From: a virus
Virus record (IMG/VR): IMGVR_UViG_3300034198_010221
Location: 1-39,834 of that record
DNA: 39,834 bases
Strand: one strand, 5' to 3'
The stretch's first letter is position 1. Each line of letters opens with the position of its first letter. The notes beneath the pieces are model-generated. The model had not been told where the DNA came from and did not search any database. It saw only the letters and a list, made by a program, of their open reading frames with translations. The translations under genes were made by a program, and so were the position numbers. Of the stretch, positions 7,189-35,771 are shown in pieces.

Positions 7189-10100
7189 TGCAGCTGCCCT
7201 CCGCAATCTTGCGCTCAAGTTTTGCAATCTCATTGTCCAGCTCTTTGGCCTGCATCGCAGCCCTCTGCTGCTGCACTTTCAGCTGCCTTGCTTGGCCTCT
7301 TGAAAAGGTTGCCTGAGCTGTTGCCTGACGCTTGCTCACGGGTGGTGCGGCAGCGGCTTCAGGGGCTTTGGCGGGCTCTTTCATCGCCGTGCCTTCTGGC
7401 GTCCACTCGTAGGTGTTGGCCTTACGTGGTGGTGTTGGTGTCAGCTCAGGATTGAACTGCGGTGTTGCAGCCCTGACCCGATCAACAGCGCCACCAAACT
7501 CATTGCGCTGCAGGGCATAGAAACCCTCGCCAAGGATGCCCAGCTTCTTCTTCTCTTCCCAGGTCATTTGGTCCCAGCCGCGATCGGCCAGCCATGCCTG
7601 ACGCTGCACGCGCTGCGCTTGAGCATCCATCACTTGGTACTCGTACCTCAGCCGCATCTCATCAATGAGCAAGTCAGCGTTCTTGCCCCCGGCTTTGTAG
7701 ATGGGCAGCTGGTCATTCAAAAACTGCATAGGCAGTTGACCGCTCTCATCAGCCAGCAGGTCGTCGATGAACTGGCCTTGCTGGAAGAACTCAGGGCCGT
7801 CAGGGCGCTTGGGCAGCGGCGTCACCGGCGCTTGCACCTCGCCGTTGTCGATGGCCCGTTGCAGGATCTCGCGCTTGAGGCGGTTGCGGGTTTCAGCGTC
7901 AATGCCGCGAGCCTGGTAGTCCACCATCGGCACCACCACCTCGTTACCATCGGCATCGAGAGTGCGGCTCATTCCTGGCACATCCAGGTTTGCCGGCACG
8001 TCCAGCAGCGGTGCGTCGCCACCAGCTGGGTTGGTCGTCAGCCGCAGAGCGCCCTGTTCAGGGGTTGGCGGCTCTGGCGGCAGGTAGCGCCCACGGCGCT
8101 CGCTGATCTCCACCAGGGCATCAACAATGTCCTGCTTCTTGGCGTTCCACACCCGGCGGCCAGTGCGTGCCTTGACCAGAGCAGCCACCTCAGGGCTGGA
8201 GTCCGGCATTGCCAGCCGGCGCAGCTGGTCCCGGTTCCAGCCCTGCAGCGCGTTGCGGTAGTCATCTGGCGTCCGGTAGCCGTACTCGCTGGCGGTGGCA
8301 GCCAGGTCGCGGAACGGAGGCAGCTGAATCTCATCAGCCAGGTTCAGGCCCAGCTGCTGTGGCAGCGTCATCTCAAGCTGATCACCCACCAGGGTCTCGG
8401 GAACTTGTGACCGCGCTTGCAGCGATGCCACCTGCTGCTGTGCAGCATCCAGTTCTTTCTGGGCACGAGTCAGCAGGCGCTTGGCCCCTGTCGGCGTCAG
8501 GTTGCCTGCATCTGCTCTCGACTGGATCTCGGCAATCCGGTCATTGATCGTTTGGATCTGAGCTTGGGCCTGGGCAAGCTCCTGAACATTCCGTTCCTGG
8601 CCTGCTTGGCGATAGACACGGCTGTGGACCTGGCGCAACTGCTGGTCATCCAGCTCGTCCAGGTGCGCCAGGTACGTGTCGATCTCAGGCCTGGGGTCAA
8701 CAAGGTCAAACTCGCCTTGGACACCAGAGCGCGGGGCCAAGAACTCGTCAGTGGTGCTAGTGAGGTTCAGGTCAGCGATCTGCTTATCGACCTCAACCAG
8801 CTGCTTCTCAATGCCATCCAGCTGATCGGGGCTCTCTTGCATGGCTTTGATCAGCTGCCCTCTCTGTGTCTGCAGCTGGCGGATCTGCAGGCGCACCTCG
8901 GGGTCAACTGCCTGGCCGACATTCAGCTCAAGCTGGCCCAGCTCTCCTTGCTCGACCAACCCCTGTTGCTGCAGCCACTCACGCTGCTGCGTGACCTGTC
9001 TGATCTGGGTCTGCTCCTGTAACGACCGTCCAATAGCTGAGTCGTAGGGGGCAAGCGGACCGCCCACATCCCATGGACTGCGAGCCGGATCCCAACCCTG
9101 GCTCCACTGTCCGGCTTTTGCCTTGGCAAAGTCATTCAGCTGATCACCTTGCTGACGGCTGAAACCAGCGGCAGCAGAAGCAGCGTCTGCTGGTGCACTT
9201 GATCCATACGCAGAGGGCAACGCTGGCCCAGCCATTGGCTTGGGCATGTAGGGCTCGAGCTCAGCATCAGCCAGATCCTTGATCCAGTTGACATCCCCAT
9301 TCGCCAACCCTCTGCGGATGGGGGCAAGCAATGCGCCAGCACCAATCAATGCCAACGGTGCGGCGATGCCCTCAACCATCAAGCCCTTGCCGAATGCCTG
9401 CAGGTAGTTATCCCCTTCCTCCATACGACCTGGGAGCCTGAAGCCCGTTTCAGCAGGCACCACCTCGCCGGTCCAGTTGCCCTGTGCATCGACAACACCA
9501 CGGGCAGGTTTGACGGCACGAATGAAGGGAACACCCTTTGTGTCGTTGGGGTCGAAGGTGAAGTTGTCTGGCAGGTTCGCCAGGTTGCCGTCCTGCTGAT
9601 CCAGGAACGGTGCAGCAAGCGCAGTACCGACCAACGCTTCGCCAACGTTCTTGGCAACGTTCACGCCAGCCTTGATCTTGGGCGAGGCCTGGACAGCAAC
9701 AGCTGCACGGCGCACTGCTTGGGTGGCCTTCATTGCATCGGCTGCCTTCTTCAGCTGGCCCAGTTGCCCCAGCCGCCGCAGCACTGTGGCACCAGTGGCA
9801 GCACCTGCTAGCTCAGCGCCAATCCCTTCACCCACTGCCAGGCCAGCTTCATCAGCTGCGGTGACCTCAGAGCCAGTACCAATACGGAATGGGTTGAACT
9901 GCCGGGCCTGCTTATCGCTGATAGTCCAAGCATCCTTGACATCAATCGGCTTGCCCTGAACCAGATCACCCAGGGCATTGGTCAACTTGCTGATCCCGTT
10001 GATGGGGCCGGTAAAGATCCCTGCCTTGGTGTCAGGCGACGCCAAGGTGTTCATCAGCTGCCCCAACGGCTTGAGCGGGCCCAGCCGGTTCTCGAGCGAC

Positions 10101-10198: not shown

Positions 10199-13012
10199 TC
10201 AGGGCCTCCTGTTGCTACGGATGATTCGCAGCAACTTGTTCACGTAATTGGGATCAGTGGCGTATCCCTGCTGCTTCAGGATCCGCGCTGCTTCTTCAAC
10301 GGTCTTCGCTTTATTCGCTCCATTACTGCCCTGATACCACTTGCTCACCAAGTAGCCGACGCTCTCATTAGGGCTTGCAAAGTCCATGAAGCTGGCTGAG
10401 GTGTTGACCCGTTGGCCACCAACGACTTCCCACGTATTGCGGCGAGTGCCTGCCCCTTTCTGACCGAAGTAGTTGTTGCGTCCGCTGGTGGAACGCCCCC
10501 AGTCCGATTCGAGAGCCCACTGTGCTGCCACCAACTCTGGGAACTTGGCACCGTTGGCACGAGCCATGGCAACAACCTTGTCCCACCCAGGGCCGCCGCT
10601 TCCGCCTCTTGTAGACCGGGTAGCGACATACGACTGACCGCCGCCACCGCTGTACTCAGGAGGCAACGTGGCAGCTGCAGCCGGCGGCATGATCATCTGC
10701 ATCAGCCAGCTACCTGGCGAGAAGCTGTTGTATCCAGTCAGCACCATCCCCAAACCCAAGCTGCTGTAGTTGGCGCTGGAAATGGTCTTGCCTTGCCGCT
10801 CGCGGATCAGCTGCTGTTGCAGGTATTTGGAGATGGTTCCGTCCCGATCCATGTCGGGATAGAACCGGGTCATCTGCTCGAGCAGATAGCGGGTCGTTGA
10901 CGTGTTGGCGCGACGAGCAAGGTTGTAGAGCTCTGGGCTGACCGGCTTGCCGTTGTTCAGGTTTTGCAGTTCGGAGTGCAGCCAGGGCTTGCTCATCACC
11001 GGACGAGCCTCATAAGCCTTGACTGTCGAATCCTTGAGTGCGCCGGCCTTACTGCGATCAACACCGCGCACGTCAGGACCAGGCTTGGTGCCCTGCTTCG
11101 GCCCTGTGCCCACCGACCCCTGGCCGACCTCACCAGGGTTCATGCCCGTGGCCTGGCTGTAGATCCGTGCGTACTCAGGCGATTTACGGGCAGCAGCTAC
11201 TGCTTGGCTGACGATGACGTTCTGGGCAGAAGGCGGGATGCGACCCACGCCGGGGTTTTCCTTGCGCCAGGCGTTCATGCCAGCCATCACCTGGCGGACA
11301 TACAGGTTCTCCAGATCGATCGCAAAGGCGGCCAGCTTGTTGGGGGCAGCGCTCATGGCTCCTCCCACCGTCATGCCTGGCTGCAGCAGCAGCGACATGG
11401 CTTCGCCTTTGGGATCCAACGACTTGATGGGTCCAAGGCCCATGTCTTGTTTGATCTCACCCTTGATCTGCCCAAACAGGCCCTCGGGCATGTCGTTGAA
11501 CAGCTTTTCGCGCTCGTTAATGCGGGTCTGCAATTTCTGGCGAAGCTGCTCTCTGCCCTCGCCCGTGCCTTCGCGGTTTGCGTAAGCATCGGCCTGGGCC
11601 CGAACGCGGCCAATGTTTTTGGGCGACAAGTCGTTGGGCGAAAGGTTGTCTACCCAGTTCTCGACAGCCGCTCGTTCCTCGGCCGTCATGCTGAACGCTG
11701 CCCTCGCAAACGCCTGCGATTGAGTGGCTTTGTCGCCCAGATAGTTGTCGATGTCCAGGTAGCCGATCCGCAGCCCATAGTTCTTGGCGGCAACCATCCG
11801 TTGCTGGTAGTCCTCTGAATCCACGACAACGCCCGGATGTCCAGGACCGTTCTTGCCGTAATAGAAGGCGTCCATCTGCTGGCCCAGATCCTTCTGCTTC
11901 AGCTCGAACCTCTGGGTTGTCAGCTGCAACCCCTTGTTCTGCATCTCCAGCAGCTGAACAGGGTTGGCATCAATGAAGCGCGGCCGCTTATCGAGAGGAT
12001 CGTTGGGGCTGCCGACGCGAATTTCGCGGACAATTCCTTCAATCGCCGGGTTGCGGCTGAGCAATGCGAGGTTGCCGTAGACCTGCTGCATCGCATCTTT
12101 TTTCTTGTCACCCGCCAGCAGCCGAAGGCCTTTGTCGATCTGATCGGTCAGAACCAGACCGGCCAAGGAGTTAAAGCGTGGGTCGGTACGGGTGATGACT
12201 GAACCATCAGCCATCGACACGCCGTTCCTGAGGATCTGAGCCAGCACCCCGTTGACTGCGCCACCCGTTGCCTCAGTGGTGGTGCGAGCTGTCTCTTCGT
12301 TCCACAGCTTGCGGTGCTGCTCGGTGTACGTCTCCCATGCCTTGTTTACGGCGGGCACGACATAGAACTGACTCTCCAGCTCATCGCCCGTCAGCCCATA
12401 GGCAGACATGACCTTGTTGGTGATGGCTGCTTTCTGTTTGACCAGCTCACCGCTGCCAGGGGCCAAGCCAGCTCGAGCACCAGCGTTGACCGCCAGGTCG
12501 TTCAGCAGGGCGTCATCAACTTCGGCTGCGGCCATCTGGGCTACGGCCCGCTTCCGGCCCACCTGGCTCCAGGGGTTGGAGTCCTGCAGCAGCTGTGAAG
12601 CCACTGGGTCAACCTTCTGCAGCTGGTTGATCTGCGCAGCAGCGTTGGCAGCGCCTTGCTCCTGCTGCACCTGCAGGCTCAGGGTCGCCTTGGCCTGTTG
12701 GTTCTTGAGCTTCTTGAGCTCGTCGTAATAGCCCTCCTCGATCTTGCCCTTGGCGTAGGAGAGGTAGCCCTGGGCGCCTGCCTGCACCAAGGTTTCGGTG
12801 AACGGGCTAAGAGCCGTGGCTAGCTGCTGGTATTGGTTGTAACCCTGAACGCTGCCGCCACTGCCCATCTGCAGAGTGGTGACGCCATCCGGGGTGCCGA
12901 GCATTGCTGGCTTGGCAGGCCCGGCGATGTTCTTGTCGGCGGCTTGAACGAACGCGCCGATGGGCCGCGCTACCGGCGTGATCTGACCAAAGGGGAGAAG
13001 ACGGTCTGCCAT
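10199..13012 (-). CDS. internal virion protein with C-terminal GH73-like muramidase domain
   Basis: 937 aa. The last ~130 residues carry a FlgJ/GH73-type glucosaminidase signature: AAQWALESDWGRS with Glu835 as the probable catalytic acid, then NNYFGQKG and a late YATDPNYVNKLL motif. This domain should cut peptidoglycan during DNA entry. The N-terminal 700 residues are helical and Gln-rich, like T7 core proteins. Pro/Gly-rich linkers precede the enzyme domain. The start is 3 nt after the stop of the gp14-like gene. In T7 the cell-wall enzyme sits at the N-terminus of gp16; here it is on an earlier core protein and at the C-terminus. Confidence 0.85.
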   Translation of the reverse strand: MADRLLPFGQITPVARPIGAFVQAADKNIAGPAKPAMLGTPDGVTTLQMGSGGSVQGYNQYQQLATALSPFTETLVQAGAQGYLSYAKGKIEEGYYDELKKLKNQQAKATLSLQVQQEQGAANAAAQINQLQKVDPVASQLLQDSNPWSQVGRKRAVAQMAAAEVDDALLNDLAVNAGARAGLAPGSGELVKQKAAITNKVMSAYGLTGDELESQFYVVPAVNKAWETYTEQHRKLWNEETARTTTEATGGAVNGVLAQILRNGVSMADGSVITRTDPRFNSLAGLVLTDQIDKGLRLLAGDKKKDAMQQVYGNLALLSRNPAIEGIVREIRVGSPNDPLDKRPRFIDANPVQLLEMQNKGLQLTTQRFELKQKDLGQQMDAFYYGKNGPGHPGVVVDSEDYQQRMVAAKNYGLRIGYLDIDNYLGDKATQSQAFARAAFSMTAEERAAVENWVDNLSPNDLSPKNIGRVRAQADAYANREGTGEGREQLRQKLQTRINEREKLFNDMPEGLFGQIKGEIKQDMGLGPIKSLDPKGEAMSLLLQPGMTVGGAMSAAPNKLAAFAIDLENLYVRQVMAGMNAWRKENPGVGRIPPSAQNVIVSQAVAAARKSPEYARIYSQATGMNPGEVGQGSVGTGPKQGTKPGPDVRGVDRSKAGALKDSTVKAYEARPVMSKPWLHSELQNLNNGKPVSPELYNLARRANTSTTRYLLEQMTRFYPDMDRDGTISKYLQQQLIRERQGKTISSANYSSLGLGMVLTGYNSFSPGSWLMQMIMPPAAAATLPPEYSGGGGQSYVATRSTRGGSGGPGWDKVVAMARANGAKFPELVAAQWALESDWGRSTSGRNNYFGQKGAGTRRNTWEVVGGQRVNTSASFMDFASPNESVGYLVSKWYQGSNGANKAKTVEEAARILKQQGYATDPNYVNKLLRIIRSNRRP

Positions 13013-26973: not shown

Positions 26974-27007
26974 CCTAGGTGCAGATCTGCAACACACCTA
27001 GGTGTGT
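26974..27007. promoter_or_regulatory. double palindrome between RNA polymerase and ssDNA-binding protein genes
   Basis: It contains CCTAGGTGCAGATC (plus), the 10-bp palindrome GCAGATCTGC (26981-26990) and a perfect 16-bp palindrome ACACACCTAGGTGTGT (26992-27007), which ends 1 nt before the RNA polymerase stop codon. The CACC-TA-GGTG core relates it to the motif family seen upstream of other units. Another half-site, TATGGGTGGAGTGC, lies at 26944-26957 (plus). It could be an operator, a promoter for the replication operon, or a weak terminator without a T-run. Confidence 0.5.
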
Positions 27008-29913: not shown

Positions 29914-30912
29914 TCAGTCCTCCAGTGCGCTGACGCAGGCAGCCAGGGCATCGGTGTGCAGGTGTAGGTAGCGCTGCACTGAGGCCAGGCTTGTCCACCC
30001 CCCGAACGTCATCAGCTGGTGCAGGGGGATGCCCTTGCTGGCCAGCTTGCTGGCGCAGGTGTGACGGGTGGTGTGAATTGATAGCGCCCTGTCATCCATA
30101 AGGCCGAGGGCACCCTTGGCCAGGTTGAACAGGTGCTGATAGCGGGTGTACTTGTACGGCCACACCCGATGGCTGGGCACCGCAGGCATGTGCGGCTCCA
30201 GGGCCTCGATGGCACGGCGGGTGAGCGGCACCGAGCGGGGCTTGCCGTTCTTGGTGGTCCAGAAGGTGACGCGACCCTTCACCAGATCCACGTCCTGACC
30301 CTTCACCCGTTCGGCTTCACCCCACCGGCAGGCGGTCTCAAGCAGGAACACCAGCATGTCGGCCGCGGCGGGCTCACCCACCTGCCTGAAGTAGGAGCAG
30401 AAGCGATCGCGCTCCTCGTCGCTGATCACCCGGTCTTTGGTGTTGACCAGGCGCAGCTGCTGGGGCATCCGCGGGATCTCCTGTAGGTGCCCGTGCAGGT
30501 GTGCATCGGCAAGCATTGCCCTGATGGCTGACACCTTGCGGTTGACCGTGCTGGGGCGGTTGCCCTTAGCCAGCAGCTTCTGGCGCCAGGCATCAACTGC
30601 CGCTGCCGTGATCTCGTTGACCGGGAAGTAGGCCCCGAAATAGTCCACCGCCTCGCGGCTGTAGATGGCCGCTGTGCGCTCGTAGGCGGTGCCTGCCCAG
30701 CGGATGCGCAGGGACAGGTCTCGAGCCTCTTTCAGGGTGAACGGAGGGGCCACAGCGGGCTTCGCATCGCGCTGCACCAGCAGCTCGAGCAGCTCACGCT
30801 TGCGGGCCAGGGCCTCGGATCGGCTTTTGCATTTGCCAGTACGGCGGACCCCATTGATGGTGACGTCAGCAATCCAGCTGCCGTCTGAGGCCTTGCGGAC
30901 AGTGCCTGCCAT
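29914..30912 (-). CDS. int: tyrosine-type integrase
   Basis: 332 aa with the full catalytic set: Arg196 (ETACRWGEAERV), His280 and Arg283 (HTTRHT), the GGW position that replaces the third His, and Tyr315 (VQRYLHL). An N-terminal arm-binding region and a SAM-like core-binding domain (residues ~55-160) precede it. It would recombine attP, 335 bp downstream, with a host tRNA-Leu. Its leader has a small hairpin and ACAACAACCACCACCACC just before ATG 30912. MarR-like regulator and integrase are adjacent and probably co-transcribed. Confidence 0.95.
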   Translation of the reverse strand: MAGTVRKASDGSWIADVTINGVRRTGKCKSRSEALARKRELLELLVQRDAKPAVAPPFTLKEARDLSLRIRWAGTAYERTAAIYSREAVDYFGAYFPVNEITAAAVDAWRQKLLAKGNRPSTVNRKVSAIRAMLADAHLHGHLQEIPRMPQQLRLVNTKDRVISDEERDRFCSYFRQVGEPAAADMLVFLLETACRWGEAERVKGQDVDLVKGRVTFWTTKNGKPRSVPLTRRAIEALEPHMPAVPSHRVWPYKYTRYQHLFNLAKGALGLMDDRALSIHTTRHTCASKLASKGIPLHQLMTFGGWTSLASVQRYLHLHTDALAACVSALED

Positions 30913-30957
30913 TGGATTGTGGTGGTGGTGGTTGTTGTGGTGAGGGTTCAGAGCCCC
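30913..30957 (-). promoter_or_regulatory. hairpin plus CA-rich translation leader, integrase
   Basis: Minus strand: stem GAGGG ... CCCTC, then ACCACAACAACCACCACCAC, a few bases and ATG. There is no Shine-Dalgarno. The same order, hairpin then CAACAACCACCACC at 14-17 nt from ATG, precedes three other early genes. An unstructured CA-rich ribosome landing site is the likely role. Confidence 0.55.
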
Positions 30958-31265
30958 TCGATCTGCCGCACCAAGGCCTTGCCCTTGGCGGTCAGGCGGA
31001 TCACAAAACGGCGCCCTTCTTCTGGATCGCGCACGACCTCAAGCAAGGCGTGCCCGTCGTATCCCTTGCGGTGCGTCTCGCCCAAGGCGTGAACCGTTCG
31101 GGACACGGTGGAGTTGGACAGGTTCAGGGCCTCTTCCAACTCCCGATAGGTCGCCTGGCCGCGCTGAGCGACCACCAGGAAGACCTCCGCATGGTGGATC
31201 GGGAACGCCGTTGGACTGAGTACGGAGAAAGCAGCCAGAGCCCCCTCCAGCTGACGTAAATCCAT
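30948..31265 (-). CDS. MarR-like winged-helix regulator (105 aa)
   Basis: The sequence HHAEVFLVVAQRGQATYRELEEALNLSNSTVSRTVHAL is a clear helix-turn-helix with recognition helix NSTVSRTVHAL. The wing (LEVVRDPEEGRRFVIRLT) and end helix (AKGKALVRQIE) complete the MarR fold. A palindrome (ACTCCTAGGAGT) and a CACCGGTG half lie 18-41 bp before its start, as expected for self-control. It is next to the integrase, so it may govern the lysogeny choice. No Shine-Dalgarno is seen before ATG 31265. Confidence 0.85.
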   Translation of the reverse strand: MDLRQLEGALAAFSVLSPTAFPIHHAEVFLVVAQRGQATYRELEEALNLSNSTVSRTVHALGETHRKGYDGHALLEVVRDPEEGRRFVIRLTAKGKALVRQIEGL

Positions 31266-31282
31266 GGTCCGTAGCGGCGGCG

Positions 31283-31312
31283 ACTCCTAGGAGTGTGACA
31301 CCGGTGGAGGAA
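31283..31312. promoter_or_regulatory. palindromic operator candidate before the MarR-like gene
   Basis: ACTCCTAGGAGT (31283-31294) is a perfect 12-bp palindrome. Five bases on, CACCGGTGGAGGAA (31299-31312, plus) matches the motif family. GACTCCTAGG-N-GT recurs at 34969-34980 before the RepL-like regulator. The two sites flank the early block, as expected for operators of a shared repressor. Confidence 0.5.
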
Positions 31313-31395
31313 GATGCGATGGGTCTGGCCCAGTGTCTCAAGGTACACAGAGAACCCAGTCCAGGAGCCGCGAAAGGGCAGTTCGACGGAAGCAA

Positions 31396-31809
31396 TTAGG
31401 CAGACTGACACTGGCTTTTCTCCTCGCAGGTGGACCTAGCCACTACTAGGTTTGTAGGGGCTTTGTAGGGGTCAAAATACGCGCTGATGAGCTGCTGACC
31501 TACAGCACTCAGCCGCAGTTGAAGGCCACGGCGATGCGGGTGCGGCCGCACATCAAGCAGGGAATACGGGCTCTCCACCCAACTCCCTTGGTGGTAGCGG
31601 GCTTTGCCCCGCAGTAAGGCAATCAACCGGCTAATGGTTGCCGGTGGTAGAGGGTTGCCATCGGGGTCGCACATCGCCCGCTGCAAGTCAGGGATGTTGT
31701 CGATCCCTGCAGCAATCAGCAGCAGCGCCTCAGCTATTTCGATCGGCACCACTCGGTTCTTCTGTCTTAAGTCCCCGAGGAACTTGGCCACGTCGGCAGG
31801 GTTATTCAC
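31396..31809 (-). CDS. winged-helix DNA-binding protein (137 aa)
   Basis: The stretch IDNIPDLQRAMCDPDGNPLPPATISRLIALLRGKARYH reads as helix-turn-helix, with PPATISRLIALLRG as the recognition helix. LDVRPHPHRRGLQLRLSAVGQQLISAYF is a MarR-type wing and closing helix. The C-terminus (STCEEKSQCQSA) is polar and probably free. Its start overlaps no gene but its ATG shares ATGA with the end of the 86-aa gene. A second MarR-fold protein so close to the first suggests a two-repressor switch. Confidence 0.75.
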   Translation of the reverse strand: MNNPADVAKFLGDLRQKNRVVPIEIAEALLLIAAGIDNIPDLQRAMCDPDGNPLPPATISRLIALLRGKARYHQGSWVESPYSLLDVRPHPHRRGLQLRLSAVGQQLISAYFDPYKAPTNLVVARSTCEEKSQCQSA

Positions 31810-32066
31810 TTGCCCTCCCGTTCGTATTGAGACTGGATGTTCCGCACCTTGAGCAGGGCTGTGGTTGCCACCTCGAGGGCGTCAGCGGTATCAGCCCAGT
31901 CAGTGCAGCCTTCAGGGCAAGAGAACACTTGGATCTCCAGCAGGTCGGTCAACAGATGGGTCCGTGGCCTCAGCAGAGACACCAGCAGGTCGGCCTCTTC
32001 TGCAGAGATGTCGAAGTTCAGCACGGCGCTGCACAGGTGGAGGGCTTTGCTTGTCAGTGTTGGCAT
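31806..32066 (-). CDS. small helical unknown protein (86 aa)
   Basis: It is an acidic, Leu-rich helical protein (ADLLVSLLRPRTHLLTDLLEIQVF ... DALEVATTALLKVRNIQSQY). A Cys pair (FSCPEGC) lies mid-way. The end overlaps the start of the winged-helix gene (ATGA). The upstream 48-bp gap contains a 9-bp-stem hairpin. It is probably an early protein. No family is recognised. Confidence 0.68.
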   Translation of the reverse strand: MPTLTSKALHLCSAVLNFDISAEEADLLVSLLRPRTHLLTDLLEIQVFSCPEGCTDWADTADALEVATTALLKVRNIQSQYEREGK

Positions 32067-32085
32067 GGCACGTCAAGAAAAGGAA

Positions 32086-32107
32086 GGGCAACGCGCAGGC
32101 GCTGCCC
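32086..32107 (-). other. leader hairpin before the 86-aa gene
   Basis: Minus strand: GGGCAGCGC-CTGC-GCGTTGCCC, a 9-bp stem with one G-U pair, followed by TTCCTTTTCTT and ATG 32066. It could be a weak terminator of the upstream gene or a leader structure. It has no CCAACAACC element. Confidence 0.5.
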
Positions 32108-32114
32108 AGTTGCA

Positions 32115-32294
32115 TCAGCCCTTGAATGGCGCCGCGGTCTCGAGCAGATAGGCGCACAGGTTGGAAACACTGCGGCCCTGATCGAAGGCAGTTGCCACCA
32201 GCCGTTCGGAAACGGCATAGCTGATGGTGATGGTGATCCGGCGGGGCGAACGCTTAGCGATCGCCACCCGATCACGTAGTGAGAGGTGGTCCAT
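32115..32294 (-). CDS. ribbon-helix-helix DNA-binding protein (59 aa)
   Basis: ATG 32294 (MDHLSLRDRVAIAKRSP) was chosen over one 75 nt upstream because the extension would cover a hairpin and has no ribosome site. RRITITISYAVSERLVATAFDQGRSVSNLCAYLLET has the strand, helix, turn (G-R-S-V-S) and helix of CopG/Arc-type repressors. Such proteins bind DNA as dimers, often as antirepressors or copy controls. It is the third DNA-binding regulator in the early block. Confidence 0.78.
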   Translation of the reverse strand: MDHLSLRDRVAIAKRSPRRITITISYAVSERLVATAFDQGRSVSNLCAYLLETAAPFKG

Positions 32295-32365
32295 GGGATC
32301 TCTCGGGTGAAGCAGGGCTGAGCCCTGCAGGTGGCCCCTGCGCAGGCACGGGCCGCGGGCAGGGT
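32295..32365 (-). other. degenerate copy of the intergenic double-hairpin module
   Basis: Minus strand: GGCCCGTGCCTGCGCAGGGGCC (outer GGCC arms, inner CCTGCGCAGG palindrome), then GCAGGGC-TCA-GCCCTGC (32312-32328). The same two elements occur in 32743-32826 and 33085-33170. The CA-rich leader is missing; GAGAGATCCC stands before the start instead. Confidence 0.5.
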
Positions 32366-32548
32366 TCAAGGCCCAGGGAACTGGGTGAGGGTGCGGCGAT
32401 CTGGCAGCTGCCTGTCAACGTTTGACGGCTGCGCAGGCATGGCTTGAGCAGCAGGCCGCGGCTGTTGTGGTGGCTGCGGTTGCTGCCAGGCGAGGGCGGC
32501 CAGGGCCCAGATCGCAATGGCACCGGTGGCGATGTCAGCGGCCTTCAT
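32366..32548 (-). CDS. small membrane-anchored protein (60 aa)
   Basis: The N-terminus MKAADIATGAIAIWALAALAW is one hydrophobic helix after a single Lys, followed by a Gln/Pro-rich tail (QQPQPPQQPRP) and a charged end. This is the plan of a one-span inner-membrane protein with a free tail. Its start overlaps the stop of the 65-aa gene. Similar short anchors in phages act in superinfection exclusion or lysis control, but nothing here proves that. Confidence 0.65.
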   Translation of the reverse strand: MKAADIATGAIAIWALAALAWQQPQPPQQPRPAAQAMPAQPSNVDRQLPDRRTLTQFPGP

Positions 32549-32742
32549 CGGGTGGCCTCCAGCTGGGCGGCCAGGTGCTCGGCGTCATCGCGCACCATGA
32601 GCAGCTCGGGCAGAAACGATCCGGCCCTGTCAAAGTCGCTGGCCAGGCTGTTGGCCTCGATGCCCCAGCCAGCGTCCGCCAGCTGGTTAATGGTGCGCGT
32701 GATGAAGCAAGACGCCGCACGCCGTAACTCGTGCTCTCTCAT
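32545..32742 (-). CDS. small unknown early protein (65 aa)
   Basis: The sequence is soluble and helical (RAASCFITRTINQLADAGWGIEANSLASDF ... MVRDDAEHLAAQLEAT). ATG 32742 comes directly after the CA-rich leader (CCAACAACC then ACC repeats) with no Shine-Dalgarno. It is followed by the membrane-anchored protein with overlap. No motif is recognised; coding is supported by the shared leader and compact spacing. Confidence 0.65.
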   Translation of the reverse strand: MREHELRRAASCFITRTINQLADAGWGIEANSLASDFDRAGSFLPELLMVRDDAEHLAAQLEATR

Positions 32743-32826
32743 TGGTGGTGGTGGTGGTGGTTGTTGGGCAGCCTTGAGGGCTGCTGAGGGCCCACCTGCG
32801 CAGGCAGGGAGGGCCCAGAGCAGACG
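32743..32826 (-). repeat. intergenic module copy 1: two hairpins and CA-rich leader
   Basis: After the stop of the 85-aa gene: TGACGTCTGC, GGGCCC ... inner palindrome CCTGCGCAGG ... GGGCCC, then GCAGCC-CTCAA-GGCTGC, then CCAACAACCACCACC and ATG. It is collinear with 33085-33170. The second stem differs between copies by a compensatory C-G to G-C change, which supports a real RNA structure. Confidence 0.75.
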
Positions 32827-33084
32827 TCAGCCCTTCCAGTTGATGGCGGCGCAAAAATCCTCGTAAAGGCCAGCCGGGCGATGCGTCCTGACGTACCGGC
32901 TCAGCACGCCCAGCACCTCGTATTGGCGATCCATGGTGTCGTGGGCATCGATGTGTTGGCCCGACTTGTAGTGGGTGCGCATCACGGTTCCCCAGGCCCT
33001 GTTGAACCGGTCGGCATGGTGCTGGCCGACTTTTATGAGCTCCTCGTCGCTGAGCTGATCGAACAAGGTGGCGGCGTTGTTCAT
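32827..33084 (-). CDS. small unknown early protein (85 aa)
   Basis: The sequence is hydrophilic and helical with several His (VGQHHADRFNRAW ... KSGQHIDAHDTMDRQYEVLGVLSRYVRTH). No zinc-finger spacing is evident. ATG 33084 is preceded by the CA-rich leader and not by a Shine-Dalgarno. It stands between ArdC-like and 65-aa genes and is flanked on both sides by copies of the same intergenic module. The function is unknown; an anti-host early role is plausible from position only. Confidence 0.68.
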   Translation of the reverse strand: MNNAATLFDQLSDEELIKVGQHHADRFNRAWGTVMRTHYKSGQHIDAHDTMDRQYEVLGVLSRYVRTHRPAGLYEDFCAAINWKG

Positions 33085-33170
33085 GGCGGTGGTGTGGTGG
33101 TTGTTGGGCAGGCGGTGAGGCCTGCAGAGGGCCCACCTGCCGCGCAGGCAGGGAGGGCCCAGTGCAGACG
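33085..33170 (-). repeat. intergenic module copy 2: two hairpins and CA-rich leader
   Basis: It starts at the ArdC-like stop: TGACGTCTGC, GGGCCC arms around CCTGCGCGGCAGG, then GCAGGC-CTCACC-GCCTGC, then CCAACAACCACCACACC and ATG 33084. It is nearly identical over its length to copy 1, and the hairpin stem change is compensatory. It may combine partial termination, mRNA protection and ribosome loading. Confidence 0.75.
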
Positions 33171-34154
33171 TCAGGCCTCTTCGATCACGTCAGGGCCGCA
33201 GATCGCGTTGGCCGCCTTGGTGGCATCGCTCAGCACCTTGAAAAGCACCTTGGGCCCTTCCTTGAGCACCCCGGCCCAGTTGCCCAGGTAGGCGGCGTGG
33301 TTCTCAGTGCAGCTGCTGATCTCCAGCCGGTTACAGATCAAAAAGGCTGCGAGCTCTGCCACCAGTTCTTCCCTGGCGTAATCAGCAGAGCCGAACGGGT
33401 TGCCCAGCTTGCGGCCCAGCCGGCTGCTGTGGCCGGTGCTGTGGGCCTGCTCATGGGCCCAGGTGGCATAGAGGCCCTCAGCGGTTGAGAACTGGGCCCG
33501 GGTGGGCATGGTGATCTGATCAGCGGCCGAGCTGTAGTAGGCGCGATCACCGGCCCAGGTGGTGGGCACCGGCCAGGCCCCTAGCACAGCCTCAGCAGCT
33601 GCCAGACGTTCGGGCTCAGGTTTCACCACCACAGCCCCCAGGGCCTCGGCGATGCGAGCCTCTAGGGCCTGCTGAGCCTCAGGGGTGCCGCCCACCAGGT
33701 CGGCGACGTTAAAAACGCACACCGGCTTGAACGAAACCCAGGCACTGATCAGGGGCTGCCCATCAGGGCCCACCACCGGCCGCCCCTTCTCATCCTCCTG
33801 TTCCCGTTTGTTGAGCTGTGGCCGCAGCACGTAGCAACCCTTAGAGCCCTTCCGCGGAAACCAGCCCTCTGCCTTGGCTTGAGCACCCCCCAGCCACAGC
33901 GGCAGGGAGAACCCCCGGCAGGCAGCCCACATCTCAAGCACTGCAGGGTTGCTGCCCCGGTACGGCTGGCCGGTGATCAGGTTGCGGTGCTGGCCCTGAG
34001 GGCCCGTCTGGGCCCAGTCGCGACGCCAAGGGTTGACGCCCTTCTCCAGGAGCTCAACCAATGCAGAGCACAACTTCTCTTCTGCTGTGGGCCCGTCGTA
34101 GGTCTTCCGGGCCTTGCTGCTGCCCTTACGGGCCTTGGTGGTGGTGGTGGCCAT
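33171..34154 (-). CDS. ArdC-like anti-restriction protein
   Basis: 327 aa. The N-terminal ssDNA-binding domain has the family order: LLEKGVNPWRRDW, NLITGQPYRGSNPAVL, GWFPRKGSKG. The C-terminal zincin domain has HEXXH at His234-Glu235-x-x-His238 (WAHEQAHSTGH) and the downstream EELVAELAAFLI. ArdC proteins of plasmids bind single-stranded DNA and protect incoming DNA from restriction; the peptidase part has no agreed target. The start is preceded by a hairpin and the CA-rich leader. It is probably the first gene expressed in the leftward early block. Confidence 0.92.
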   Translation of the reverse strand: MATTTTKARKGSSKARKTYDGPTAEEKLCSALVELLEKGVNPWRRDWAQTGPQGQHRNLITGQPYRGSNPAVLEMWAACRGFSLPLWLGGAQAKAEGWFPRKGSKGCYVLRPQLNKREQEDEKGRPVVGPDGQPLISAWVSFKPVCVFNVADLVGGTPEAQQALEARIAEALGAVVVKPEPERLAAAEAVLGAWPVPTTWAGDRAYYSSAADQITMPTRAQFSTAEGLYATWAHEQAHSTGHSSRLGRKLGNPFGSADYAREELVAELAAFLICNRLEISSCTENHAAYLGNWAGVLKEGPKVLFKVLSDATKAANAICGPDVIEEA

Positions 34155-34204
34155 GGCTGGCAGGTGGTGGTGGTTGTTGGCTGCTCTGCACTAGTGGCGA
34201 GCAG
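34155..34204 (-). promoter_or_regulatory. hairpin plus CA-rich translation leader, ArdC-like gene
   Basis: Minus strand: stem CTGCTC ... GAGCAG (34181-34204, with an inner CACTAGTG), then at once CCAACAACCACC (34169-34180), ACC and CTGCCAGCC before ATG 34154. The hairpin stem is unrelated in sequence to those of the other modules, but the layout is the same. No Shine-Dalgarno is present. Confidence 0.6.
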
Positions 34205-34223
34205 TGCTGAATACATAGCACAA

Positions 34224-34239
34224 GCTCTCCACCGGTGGA
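34224..34239. promoter_or_regulatory. CACCGGTGGAGAGC motif with perfect dyad before the ArdC-like gene
   Basis: Minus strand CACCGGTGGAGAGC (34224-34237) includes a perfect 12-bp palindrome TCCACCGGTGGA (34228-34239). It lies 70 bp upstream of ATG 34154. It is the most symmetric member of the motif family and a good operator candidate for the leftward early transcript. Confidence 0.55.
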
Positions 34240-34635: not shown

Positions 34636-34706
34636 CGCCATCACATCGCGCGACCCAAAACTGGGAAATAGGTCGCCATGACATCGCGCGACCCAAAAAC
34701 GGGAAA
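34636..34706 (+). repeat. two 33-bp direct repeats with TCGCGCGA core
   Basis: 34636-34668 and 34674-34706 begin 38 bp apart and match at 30 of 33 positions. Each has CGCCAT, ACATCGCGCGACCC, an A-run and GGGAAA. The 8-bp palindrome TCGCGCGA is central. They lie on the edge of a G-rich tract and are not coding. Confidence 0.8.
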
Positions 34707-34957: not shown

Positions 34958-34986
34958 ACCTAGGGAGTGACTCCTAGGTGTCAGGT
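34958..34986. promoter_or_regulatory. CCTAGG inverted repeat before the RepL-like gene
   Basis: ACCTAGGGAGT-G-ACTCCTAGGT (34958-34979) is an inverted repeat with one extra G, then GTCAGG. GACTCCTAGG matches the palindrome before the MarR-like gene. It lies 27 bp upstream of ATG 35013. Confidence 0.55.
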
Positions 34987-35012: not shown

Positions 35013-35387
35013 ATGAAGCCTAGAGAAGACGGTGACGAGAACTTCGTGATGGTCCACCAGCGCGATCTCGATTCGACCATTGCCCTGTTGGGTGAACGGA
35101 AGCTGGAGCTGCGGGATGCTGCGGTGTTCCTGGTGCTTTTGAACTACGTCAACTGGCGCAGTGGGAGAGCCCATGTGACGACCAGCTACATCGCTGAACG
35201 GTTGCAGGTAAAGCTGCCGGTAGCGGTGAGTGCGATCACCCGGTTGCGCAAGGAGAACCTGGTGCGGCGTGTAGCGGATCGCAGAACCGGGGAGACGTAC
35301 TTCCTGATCAACCCATTCCTGGCATCGGTTGGTGGTCCAAAACGCCGCGGCCATTTGTGGCAGCAATTTGAAGACTCACTGGAATGA
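35013..35387 (+). CDS. RepL-like winged-helix protein (124 aa)
   Basis: The stretch ELRDAAVFLVLLNYVNWRSGRAHVTTSYIAERLQVKLPVAVSAITRLRKENLVRR is a winged-helix domain, and the end GETYFLINPFLASVGG matches the last strand motif of RepL-type plasmid replication proteins (xYxxNPxL). It could be an origin-binding initiator or a regulator. It is the first rightward gene after the repeat-rich non-coding region and has a palindromic site just before it. No Shine-Dalgarno is present. Confidence 0.72.
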   Translation: MKPREDGDENFVMVHQRDLDSTIALLGERKLELRDAAVFLVLLNYVNWRSGRAHVTTSYIAERLQVKLPVAVSAITRLRKENLVRRVADRRTGETYFLINPFLASVGGPKRRGHLWQQFEDSLE

Positions 35388-35432: not shown

Positions 35433-35660
35433 TACCTGACGAATGACGAGCGGATTCGTCTTGGCTTACAGCAGTACGGCTCTGATGTTCCAGCGGATGT
35501 GGTCGAAGCAGCTGAAGCTGCGTTGGCAACGCCTTGTGGAGGTGCTTGTCCTGCCCCAACGAAGGCGACCACAAAGACCCGTGCTCGGACCAAGAGCGGT
35601 CAATTTGAAGGCGATGATCCTGATACTGCTGCCGTGAACGAGGCATACGTTGAGGGCTAA
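35430..35660 (+). CDS. small conserved protein upstream of large terminase (76 aa)
   Basis: The N-terminal helix-rich part (MYLTNDERIRLGLQQYGSDVPADVVEAAEAAL) is followed by a Cys-containing linker, a basic stretch (TKTRARTKSGQFEG) and an end DDPDTAAVNEAYVEG. The last motif (basic, G-x-F-x-G-D-D-P-x-T, V-N-E-A) is one I have seen in many phage proteins near packaging or head genes. Whether it acts in packaging is unknown. It lies 111 bp before the terminase start. Confidence 0.7.
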   Translation: MYLTNDERIRLGLQQYGSDVPADVVEAAEAALATPCGGACPAPTKATTKTRARTKSGQFEGDDPDTAAVNEAYVEG

Positions 35661-35715
35661 GGTTGTGGTGCTCACCCGGGTGGTGCCGGGAAGCACACCG
35701 CCAGGACTTGCTTCT

Positions 35716-35768
35716 GGTGGTGGTTGTTGGGAGAGCCCTTCTGCGTCTTCGGATGTGGGAGGGCTCTC
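35716..35768. promoter_or_regulatory. hairpin and CA-rich element before large terminase
   Basis: A stem GAGAGCCCT (35731-35739) with AGGGCTCTC (35760-35768) encloses a 20-nt loop. The 3' arm holds the terminase ribosome site (GGGAGGG) just before ATG 35772, so the hairpin could hide it. On the minus strand the stem is followed at once by CCAACAACCACCACC (35716-35730), as in the early leaders, but no minus-strand gene starts behind it. TTTAT after the stem could also allow weak termination. Confidence 0.5.
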
Positions 35769-35771
35769 TTT

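Follow-up and report, generated by a model that had tools for sequence, protein, structure and literature searches.

A C/A word before early genes of picocyanobacterial phages and a complementary structured RNA element: a candidate two-part RNA code

Why should unrelated early genes of one virus share a short word made of C and A alone ahead of their start codons, and why should the exact complement of that word lie between conserved hairpins read in the opposite direction? The question is raised by the IMG/VR virus record IMGVR_UViG_3300034198_010221, whose whole stretch of 39,834 bp is called the window here. Its plus strand encodes a T7-like terminase and a C39-peptidase endolysin, and its minus strand an integrase, a MarR-like regulator and an ArdC-like anti-restriction protein. 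The nearest named relative found is the freshwater phage isolate S-SRP02 (host Synechococcus sp. SR-C1), with a terminase 91% identical, and further relatives are numerous in IMG/VR and in metagenome-assembled genomes (MAGs) of Cyanobium/Synechococcus. The carriers of the word and of the complementary RNA are a large virus group of freshwater and marine picocyanobacteria. From sequence comparison, we consider it fairly probable that the leaders bearing the word are the targets in a two-part RNA code, whose other half, a rightward RNA, pairs with them in trans and lowers early translation.

The C/A word at early gene starts

A first-pass annotation of the window had described (C)CAACAACCACCAC(C) before the integrase, ArdC-like and two small genes of 65 and 85 amino acids (aa), and the word stands at those places far above chance. 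On the minus strand CAACAACCACCACC is exact at 30924 (integrase), 32753 (65-aa) and 34166 (ArdC), and has one mismatch at 33093 (85-aa); with up to three mismatches allowed the window holds 25 matches against 4.8 expected, a count reached by 0 of 100 shuffles. The spacing claimed for the four genes, 14-17 nt between CAACAACC and ATG, was also borne out. Overlooked at that stage was an additional exact copy at 35716-35730, again on the minus strand and thus opposite to the flanking plus-strand genes. The leaders and their genes are arranged as follows.

29914-30912, minus strand: integrase gene
30924-30937, minus strand: C/A word CAACAACCACCACC before the integrase, exact; CAACAACC to ATG 17 nt
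30942-30959, minus strand: hairpin of the integrase leader, upstream of the word, weakest of the four with its 5-bp stem; it overlaps the MarR-like stop codon
32545-32742, minus strand: 65-aa gene
32753-32767, minus strand: C/A word CCAACAACCACCACC before the 65-aa gene, exact match
32775-32829, minus strand: hairpin before the 65-aa word, starting at the 85-aa stop codon; retained in the predicted complex
32827-33084, minus strand: 85-aa gene
33093-33107, minus strand: C/A word CCAACAACCACCACA before the 85-aa gene, one mismatch
33116-33173, minus strand: hairpin before the 85-aa word, starting at the ArdC stop codon
33171-34154, minus strand: ArdC-like gene
34166-34180, minus strand: C/A word CCAACAACCACCACC before the ArdC-like gene, exact match
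34180-34206, minus strand: hairpin before the ArdC word

The leader recurs before early genes of the relatives checked, S-SRP02 included, where the motif lies ahead of early genes at 10903, 11692, 12103, 12912 and 13986, with one more copy at 9317. In both the window and S-SRP02 it is limited to the early region and the RNA element described below, and the structural genes do not carry it. Among relatives, CAACAACCACC has 101 distinct copies: 91 before an ATG open reading frame (ORF), a count that includes the equivalent terminase-side site of L009/L028/L108, which there precedes a chance ATG ORF, 2 before a GTG ORF, and 8 on the terminase side. The 5' end of the motif lies mostly 14-31 nt before ATG in these 91. 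When each genome is searched with its own word over at least 12 nt, 73 of the 77 sites found in 20 genomes are within 30 nt of a start, and phage records of the clades using the window's word have about 3-8 copies each. Host genomes (2-4 Mb) hold no more copies than the reversed control, and an exact-pattern scan of all viral contigs returned mostly isolated background. A host-wide leader was considered and rejected, CAACAACCACC being at control level in picocyanobacterial genomes and a rough call of 135 host ORFs giving only 2 with a C/A run of at least 12 upstream. Being far above chance, specific to phages and tied to gene starts, the repeat is real; by its distribution among these genomes, the word is phage-specific and linked to gene starts. 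We note in passing that early leaders of L292/L022 carry a purine stretch, GAGAGAGA, between word and ATG.

The rightward RNA element and its match to the word

The plus strand at 35716-35730 reads GGTGGTGGTTGTTGG, to which the leaders are exactly complementary. This G/U tract, G or T at 16 of 16 positions in the window, lies between the second and third of three hairpins (H1-H3) and is followed directly by H3, of 18-19 bp, which ends at the terminase ATG.

35013-35387: winged-helix gene, upstream of the RNA element on the divergent rightward side
35650-35771, plus strand: RNA element H1-H2-tract-H3, between a 76-aa gene and terminase; covariance model (CM) and covariation
35668-35696, plus strand: H1 hairpin, conserved loop GGUGGU; compensatory changes in 7 of 8 pairs
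35697-35722, plus strand: H2 hairpin, its 3' arm containing the 5' part of the tract; RNAfold, shuffle comparison
35716-35731, plus strand: G/U tract GGTGGTGGTTGTTGGG, complementary to the C/A words
35729-35770, plus strand: H3, long hairpin whose 3' arm has the SD-like (Shine-Dalgarno-like) GGGAGGG of terminase (ATG 35772)

One copy of the element was seen per genome, usually before terminase, and the order H1-H2-tract-H3 is kept in most terminase loci examined, apparently marine ones included. In L310, L315, L317, L309, L314 and L056 the whole element lies 250-530 nt upstream of terminase, before other genes; such relocation within the rightward operon argues that it is an independent unit and not merely the terminase leader. 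Its consensus fold has 23 pairs, 18 of them with compensatory changes; 91.5% of its cells can pair, compared with 75.7% after shuffling and ~50-61% when the partner is slid, and 0 of 500 shuffles reach any of the five structure measures. Over 27 non-redundant copies, H3 has 82 G-U against 1 A-C on the rightward strand (p=1.7e-23) and folds more stably rightward in 27/27; this bias identifies the element as a rightward RNA. In 24 of 27 relatives the pairing that H2 makes with the tract's 5' half is above the shuffle mean. The comparative data thus indicate that a conserved rightward RNA structure is present around the tract.

The CM gives one strong match in the window (35650-35770, 103.8 bits, E 2e-28) and one in S-SRP02 (98 bits), scores that merely locate the element because both sequences are close to the training set. 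In S-SRP02 a rightward RNA over the element would be about 120 nt long (9393-9280). AP013548, whose record ends at terminase, SS120-1 and S37C6 gave no CM match, and a scan of 201 picocyanobacterial genomes gave 3, namely one MAG holding phage contigs and two weak ones. Membership in a known RNA family was rejected, as no Rfam family matches the element. A very small ORF behind the reverse copy at 35716 was rejected too: an ATG or GTG is found at that place in some relatives, but no ORF is conserved.

Within a genome, unrelated genes share the exact word, and between lineages the word differs. CAACAACCACCACC is the word of the window's clade; others are CAACCACCACCACC (L264/L007), CAACCACCAACCACC (L269/L041), CACACCAACCAACC (L296, L300), CAACCACACCACACC (L306), CACCACCTACCACC (L301), CACCACCACCACCAC (L278) and CAACAACCACCAACC (L285). 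The integrase provides one homologous gene that can be picked regardless of its leader, and in 27/27 genomes with a detected integrase start this leader has a perfect complement of 10-18 nt in the genome's own tract. When tracts were permuted among 11 representatives, the summed own match of the integrase leaders, 150, exceeded the permutation mean of 110 (p=2.5e-5), and over all starts of 17 representatives it was 209 against 147, a value reached by 0 of 200,000 permutations (p ~5e-6); these p values are optimistic because the genomes are phylogenetically related. Compensation also extends outside C/A: the tract of L301, GGTGGTAGGTGGTG, has an A facing the T common to seven leaders CACCACCTACCACC, and in L280 a T is likewise shared. 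As judged from these comparisons, a change of word between virus lineages goes along with a change of tract.

Possible function of the pairing and competing explanations

How might the two halves act on each other? The word might serve as an unstructured ribosome-loading site, that is, a translational enhancer. Part of the tract is predicted to be exposed between H2 and H3; pairing with the word would begin there and extend to a duplex of ~15 bp, against whose end H3 and the leader hairpin would lie. The rightward RNA, alone or within the rightward transcript, would pair with the words in trans, and translation of the genes that bear them (ArdC, integrase and small early genes) would be lowered together; since the ribosome-loading site would lie within the duplex, repression is to be expected. 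Predicted tract-leader duplexes for the window's four leaders reach -31 to -35 kcal/mol, compared with -20.2 +/- 3.7 for random segments, and the full complexes -13 to -31 compared with -6.4 +/- 3.6 for controls. In the predicted ArdC and 65-aa complexes, both H3 and the leader hairpin persist beside the duplex.

A few further features touch on how such an RNA might be deployed. Lying downstream of the winged-helix gene on the divergent rightward side, the element could accompany a repressor in the lysogen; alternatively, the RNA could switch early genes off at the time of terminase expression. In L310 (8113), L315 (6942), L296 (8227) and L300 (5986) a rightward gene upstream of the element has a sense-oriented word, which would allow autoregulation. 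The H1 loop GGUGGU (35680-35685) is complementary to ACCACC in first codons, a possible second pairing site; ACCACC occurs in codons 2-12 of 16/65 word genes and 1/88 others. This pairing could bracket the start codon, the antiparallel order being right.

More speculatively, the system may be an early-to-late or lysogeny/immunity switch, with lineage-specific words defining immunity groups. As a tentative extension, to which we give somewhat less than an even chance, it would be an RNA address code: one trans-acting RNA would silence the word-labelled genes as a post-transcriptional immunity or early-off switch, and lineages would escape control by one another through joint re-coding of word and tract, giving rise to RNA-defined immunity groups. 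Pairing in vivo, repression, its timing and immunity are steps that we infer.

Several observations weigh against this proposal, in addition to the optimism of the permutation statistics. The integrase complex is the weakest of the four (-13.3) and falls inside the control range (minimum -18.1), and the complex of a wordless 86-aa gene reaches -17.3. Leader hairpins show no strand signal (79 G-U vs 79 A-C). Each genome's own tract gives the best match in no more than 6/11 rows for the integrase and 8/17 for all starts, since related lineages share cores, and the words are of low complexity. In L281, L308 and others the tract is present with a flank too short for the leader check. Lastly, neither a sigma-70-like promoter nor a strong terminator was seen at the element, so that a free small RNA is at most a candidate; one weak terminator-like site lies there on the plus strand.

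The alternative closest to the first-pass annotation, which had read the motif and its hairpin as a translation leader free of an SD, is that the word is only such a leader or enhancer, acting through S1 or direct 30S loading, and that the terminase-side copy is incidental. Much of that description stands. The word is placed before ATG; anti-SD pairing is 0.0 kcal/mol in each of the four window genes, and an SD-like motif occurs in 5/70 word genes. C/A richness continues past ATG (codons 2-11, 0.65 vs 0.55; codons 12-20, no difference). C/A-rich tracts are known translational enhancers, probably via S1 (PMC7769764), and the scarcity of SDs together with the C/A-rich codons 2-11 fits the enhancer first proposed. 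A distinct early, non-virion class with a C/A-only initiation region and usually no SD is thus retained, yet as an account of the word it is incomplete, for the exact word is common to unrelated genes, is lineage-specific and co-varies with a separate RNA. One exact word per genome, differing between lineages, is not required by composition or enhancer function alone, and L306 and L301 keep the word ahead of good SDs (e.g. CACACCACACCACACCAAGGAGGAGGACCA-ATG), so that it is not simply an SD substitute. Given also the conserved RNA around the tract that the word matches, we regard the leader-only explanation as unlikely.

Other parts of the earlier description held less completely. Hairpins before the word are substantial at the 65-aa, 85-aa and ArdC genes; the integrase stem has only 5 bp. 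Across the family, the word often stands right behind a hairpin, and the stretch ahead of it shows more structure than random windows do (median z -2.7 vs -0.6, Mann-Whitney U p ~2e-19, mononucleotide shuffles). GGAGG at virion and replication genes was confirmed in part; in S-SRP02 an SD-like 4-mer precedes only 19/41 non-leader genes. The omega leader of tobacco mosaic virus, with which the motif had been compared, does have CAA/CCA-like repeats ahead of its start codon. The likeness is one of composition and goes no further, omega being the mRNA leader of a eukaryotic virus without an antisense partner.

A second possibility, quite unlikely in our judgement, is that the word is a double-stranded DNA operator for a phage repressor or roadblock protein and the terminase-side copy one more such site, reversed. 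A short asymmetric word, uniform per genome, variable between lineages, kept to non-structural regions and with one reversed site is what an operator might look like, and winged-helix and MarR-like regulators are encoded nearby. Against it, the word is held to a narrow distance from start codons, and its C/A strand is always the mRNA strand; the reverse copy is flanked by RNA hairpins whose G-U pairs are strand-specific, and a separate palindrome, ACTCCTAGGAGT, looks the likelier MarR operator.

Regulation could also run in the reverse direction, the element being a cis sensor in the rightward mRNA through which abundant early leaders open or close the downstream gene, usually terminase. Such a sensor predicts the same covariation, pairing being symmetric, and H3 in most lineages stops at the start of terminase, the SD lying in its 3' arm. 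Against this, the downstream gene varies, as in the six lineages with the displaced element, and trans regulators are usually laid out in this way, with one tract facing many targets; we hold this explanation to be improbable. Homogenisation of the words by cassette recombination or molecular drive, with the tract an inverted copy devoid of RNA function, would account for uniform short repeats at the borders of variable small genes, but identity spans only 12-18 bp between differing flanks, start-codon spacing is restricted, and the covariation and strand bias at the element call for selection on RNA, which makes it hardly credible.

Known systems and neighbouring repeats

Among known systems, GcvB of enterobacteria is, by analogy, the nearest in function to the proposed antisense RNA. 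Through a single-stranded seed rich in G and U it pairs with several mRNAs, at C/A-rich stretches close to their ribosome-binding sites (PMC7769764, PMC8383071); the R1 seed is 88% G/U and binds C/A-rich enhancers. Here too a G/U-rich seed lies between stem-loops and C/A-rich targets lie near the ribosome-binding sites of several mRNAs. Unlike GcvB, with which the Rfam comparison revealed no sequence kinship, the RNA here is phage-encoded, and one near-exact word stands before many early genes and is re-coded with the seed between lineages.

Cluster K mycobacteriophages carry start-associated sequences (SAS/ESAS), a short asymmetric repeat at starts, mostly ATG, of non-structural genes, about half of the SAS with an upstream inverted repeat and one odd copy reversed; the SAS is a 13-bp GGGATAGGAGCCC with an SD core, 3-7 bp from the start, and no complementary RNA is described (PMC3203893). 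The present word is likewise restricted to non-structural gene starts, mostly ATG; it differs in being C/A-only without an SD core and in having a complementary RNA that is conserved. In cluster A mycobacteriophages, stoperators are short, asymmetric, lineage-specific DNA sites, bound by repressor, spread genome-wide and linked to immunity. The words share their shortness, asymmetry and lineage specificity, whereas they do not spread genome-wide into structural genes and instead stand at a set spacing from the starts of early genes and have an RNA that they match. The immunity RNAs P4 CI and P1 C4 are phage antisense RNAs that act on phage mRNA by complementarity. STnc6030 of BTP1 is also a phage RNA acting on phage mRNA in this way (PMC7067206). 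As with the P4 and P1 RNAs, a structured phage RNA is here complementary to phage gene leaders; unlike these and STnc6030, which have one or few targets, one tract here matches several early-region leaders.

By the comparisons made, the system belongs to none of these types. Its best reading, resting on sequence, is a phage-encoded GcvB-like antisense RNA with an early-region-wide, re-codable target word, perhaps forming an immunity layer. A literature search, itself incomplete, found no earlier description of a word-tract system, and the S-SRP02 paper makes no mention of a comparable hairpin, promoter or ribosome-binding feature. Natural compensatory changes in many genomes make the pairing directly testable by swaps of word and tract. 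Should the proposal prove true, it would describe a phage regulon under one base-pairing RNA and add a layer of translational control to temperate T7-like cyanophages, in which lysis-lysogeny control is poorly known; it would also suggest a basis for immunity groups among abundant aquatic viruses, and matched leader/antisense pairs would be usable for cyanobacterial work.

Other repeats of the window lie close to the regions discussed. The palindrome ACTCCTAGGAGT, likely the operator of the MarR-like regulator, stands before the MarR-like gene at 31283-31294 and in relatives as well; near-copies are at 34970-34981, in the divergent early region, and at 26994-27005, and the window has 4 matches against 0.9 expected. 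CTCTCCACCNNTG occurs exactly four times, at 34225, 34872 and 35420 on the plus strand and 37869 on the minus strand, with 32 near-matches against 17.8 expected; it is possibly promoter- or operator-like. In the divergent intergenic region, 34640-34705, CATCACATCGCGCGACCCAAAACTGGGAAA / CATGACATCGCGCGACCCAAAAACGGGAAA is repeated, and L307 has a similar GCGACCCAAAAACGGGAAA.

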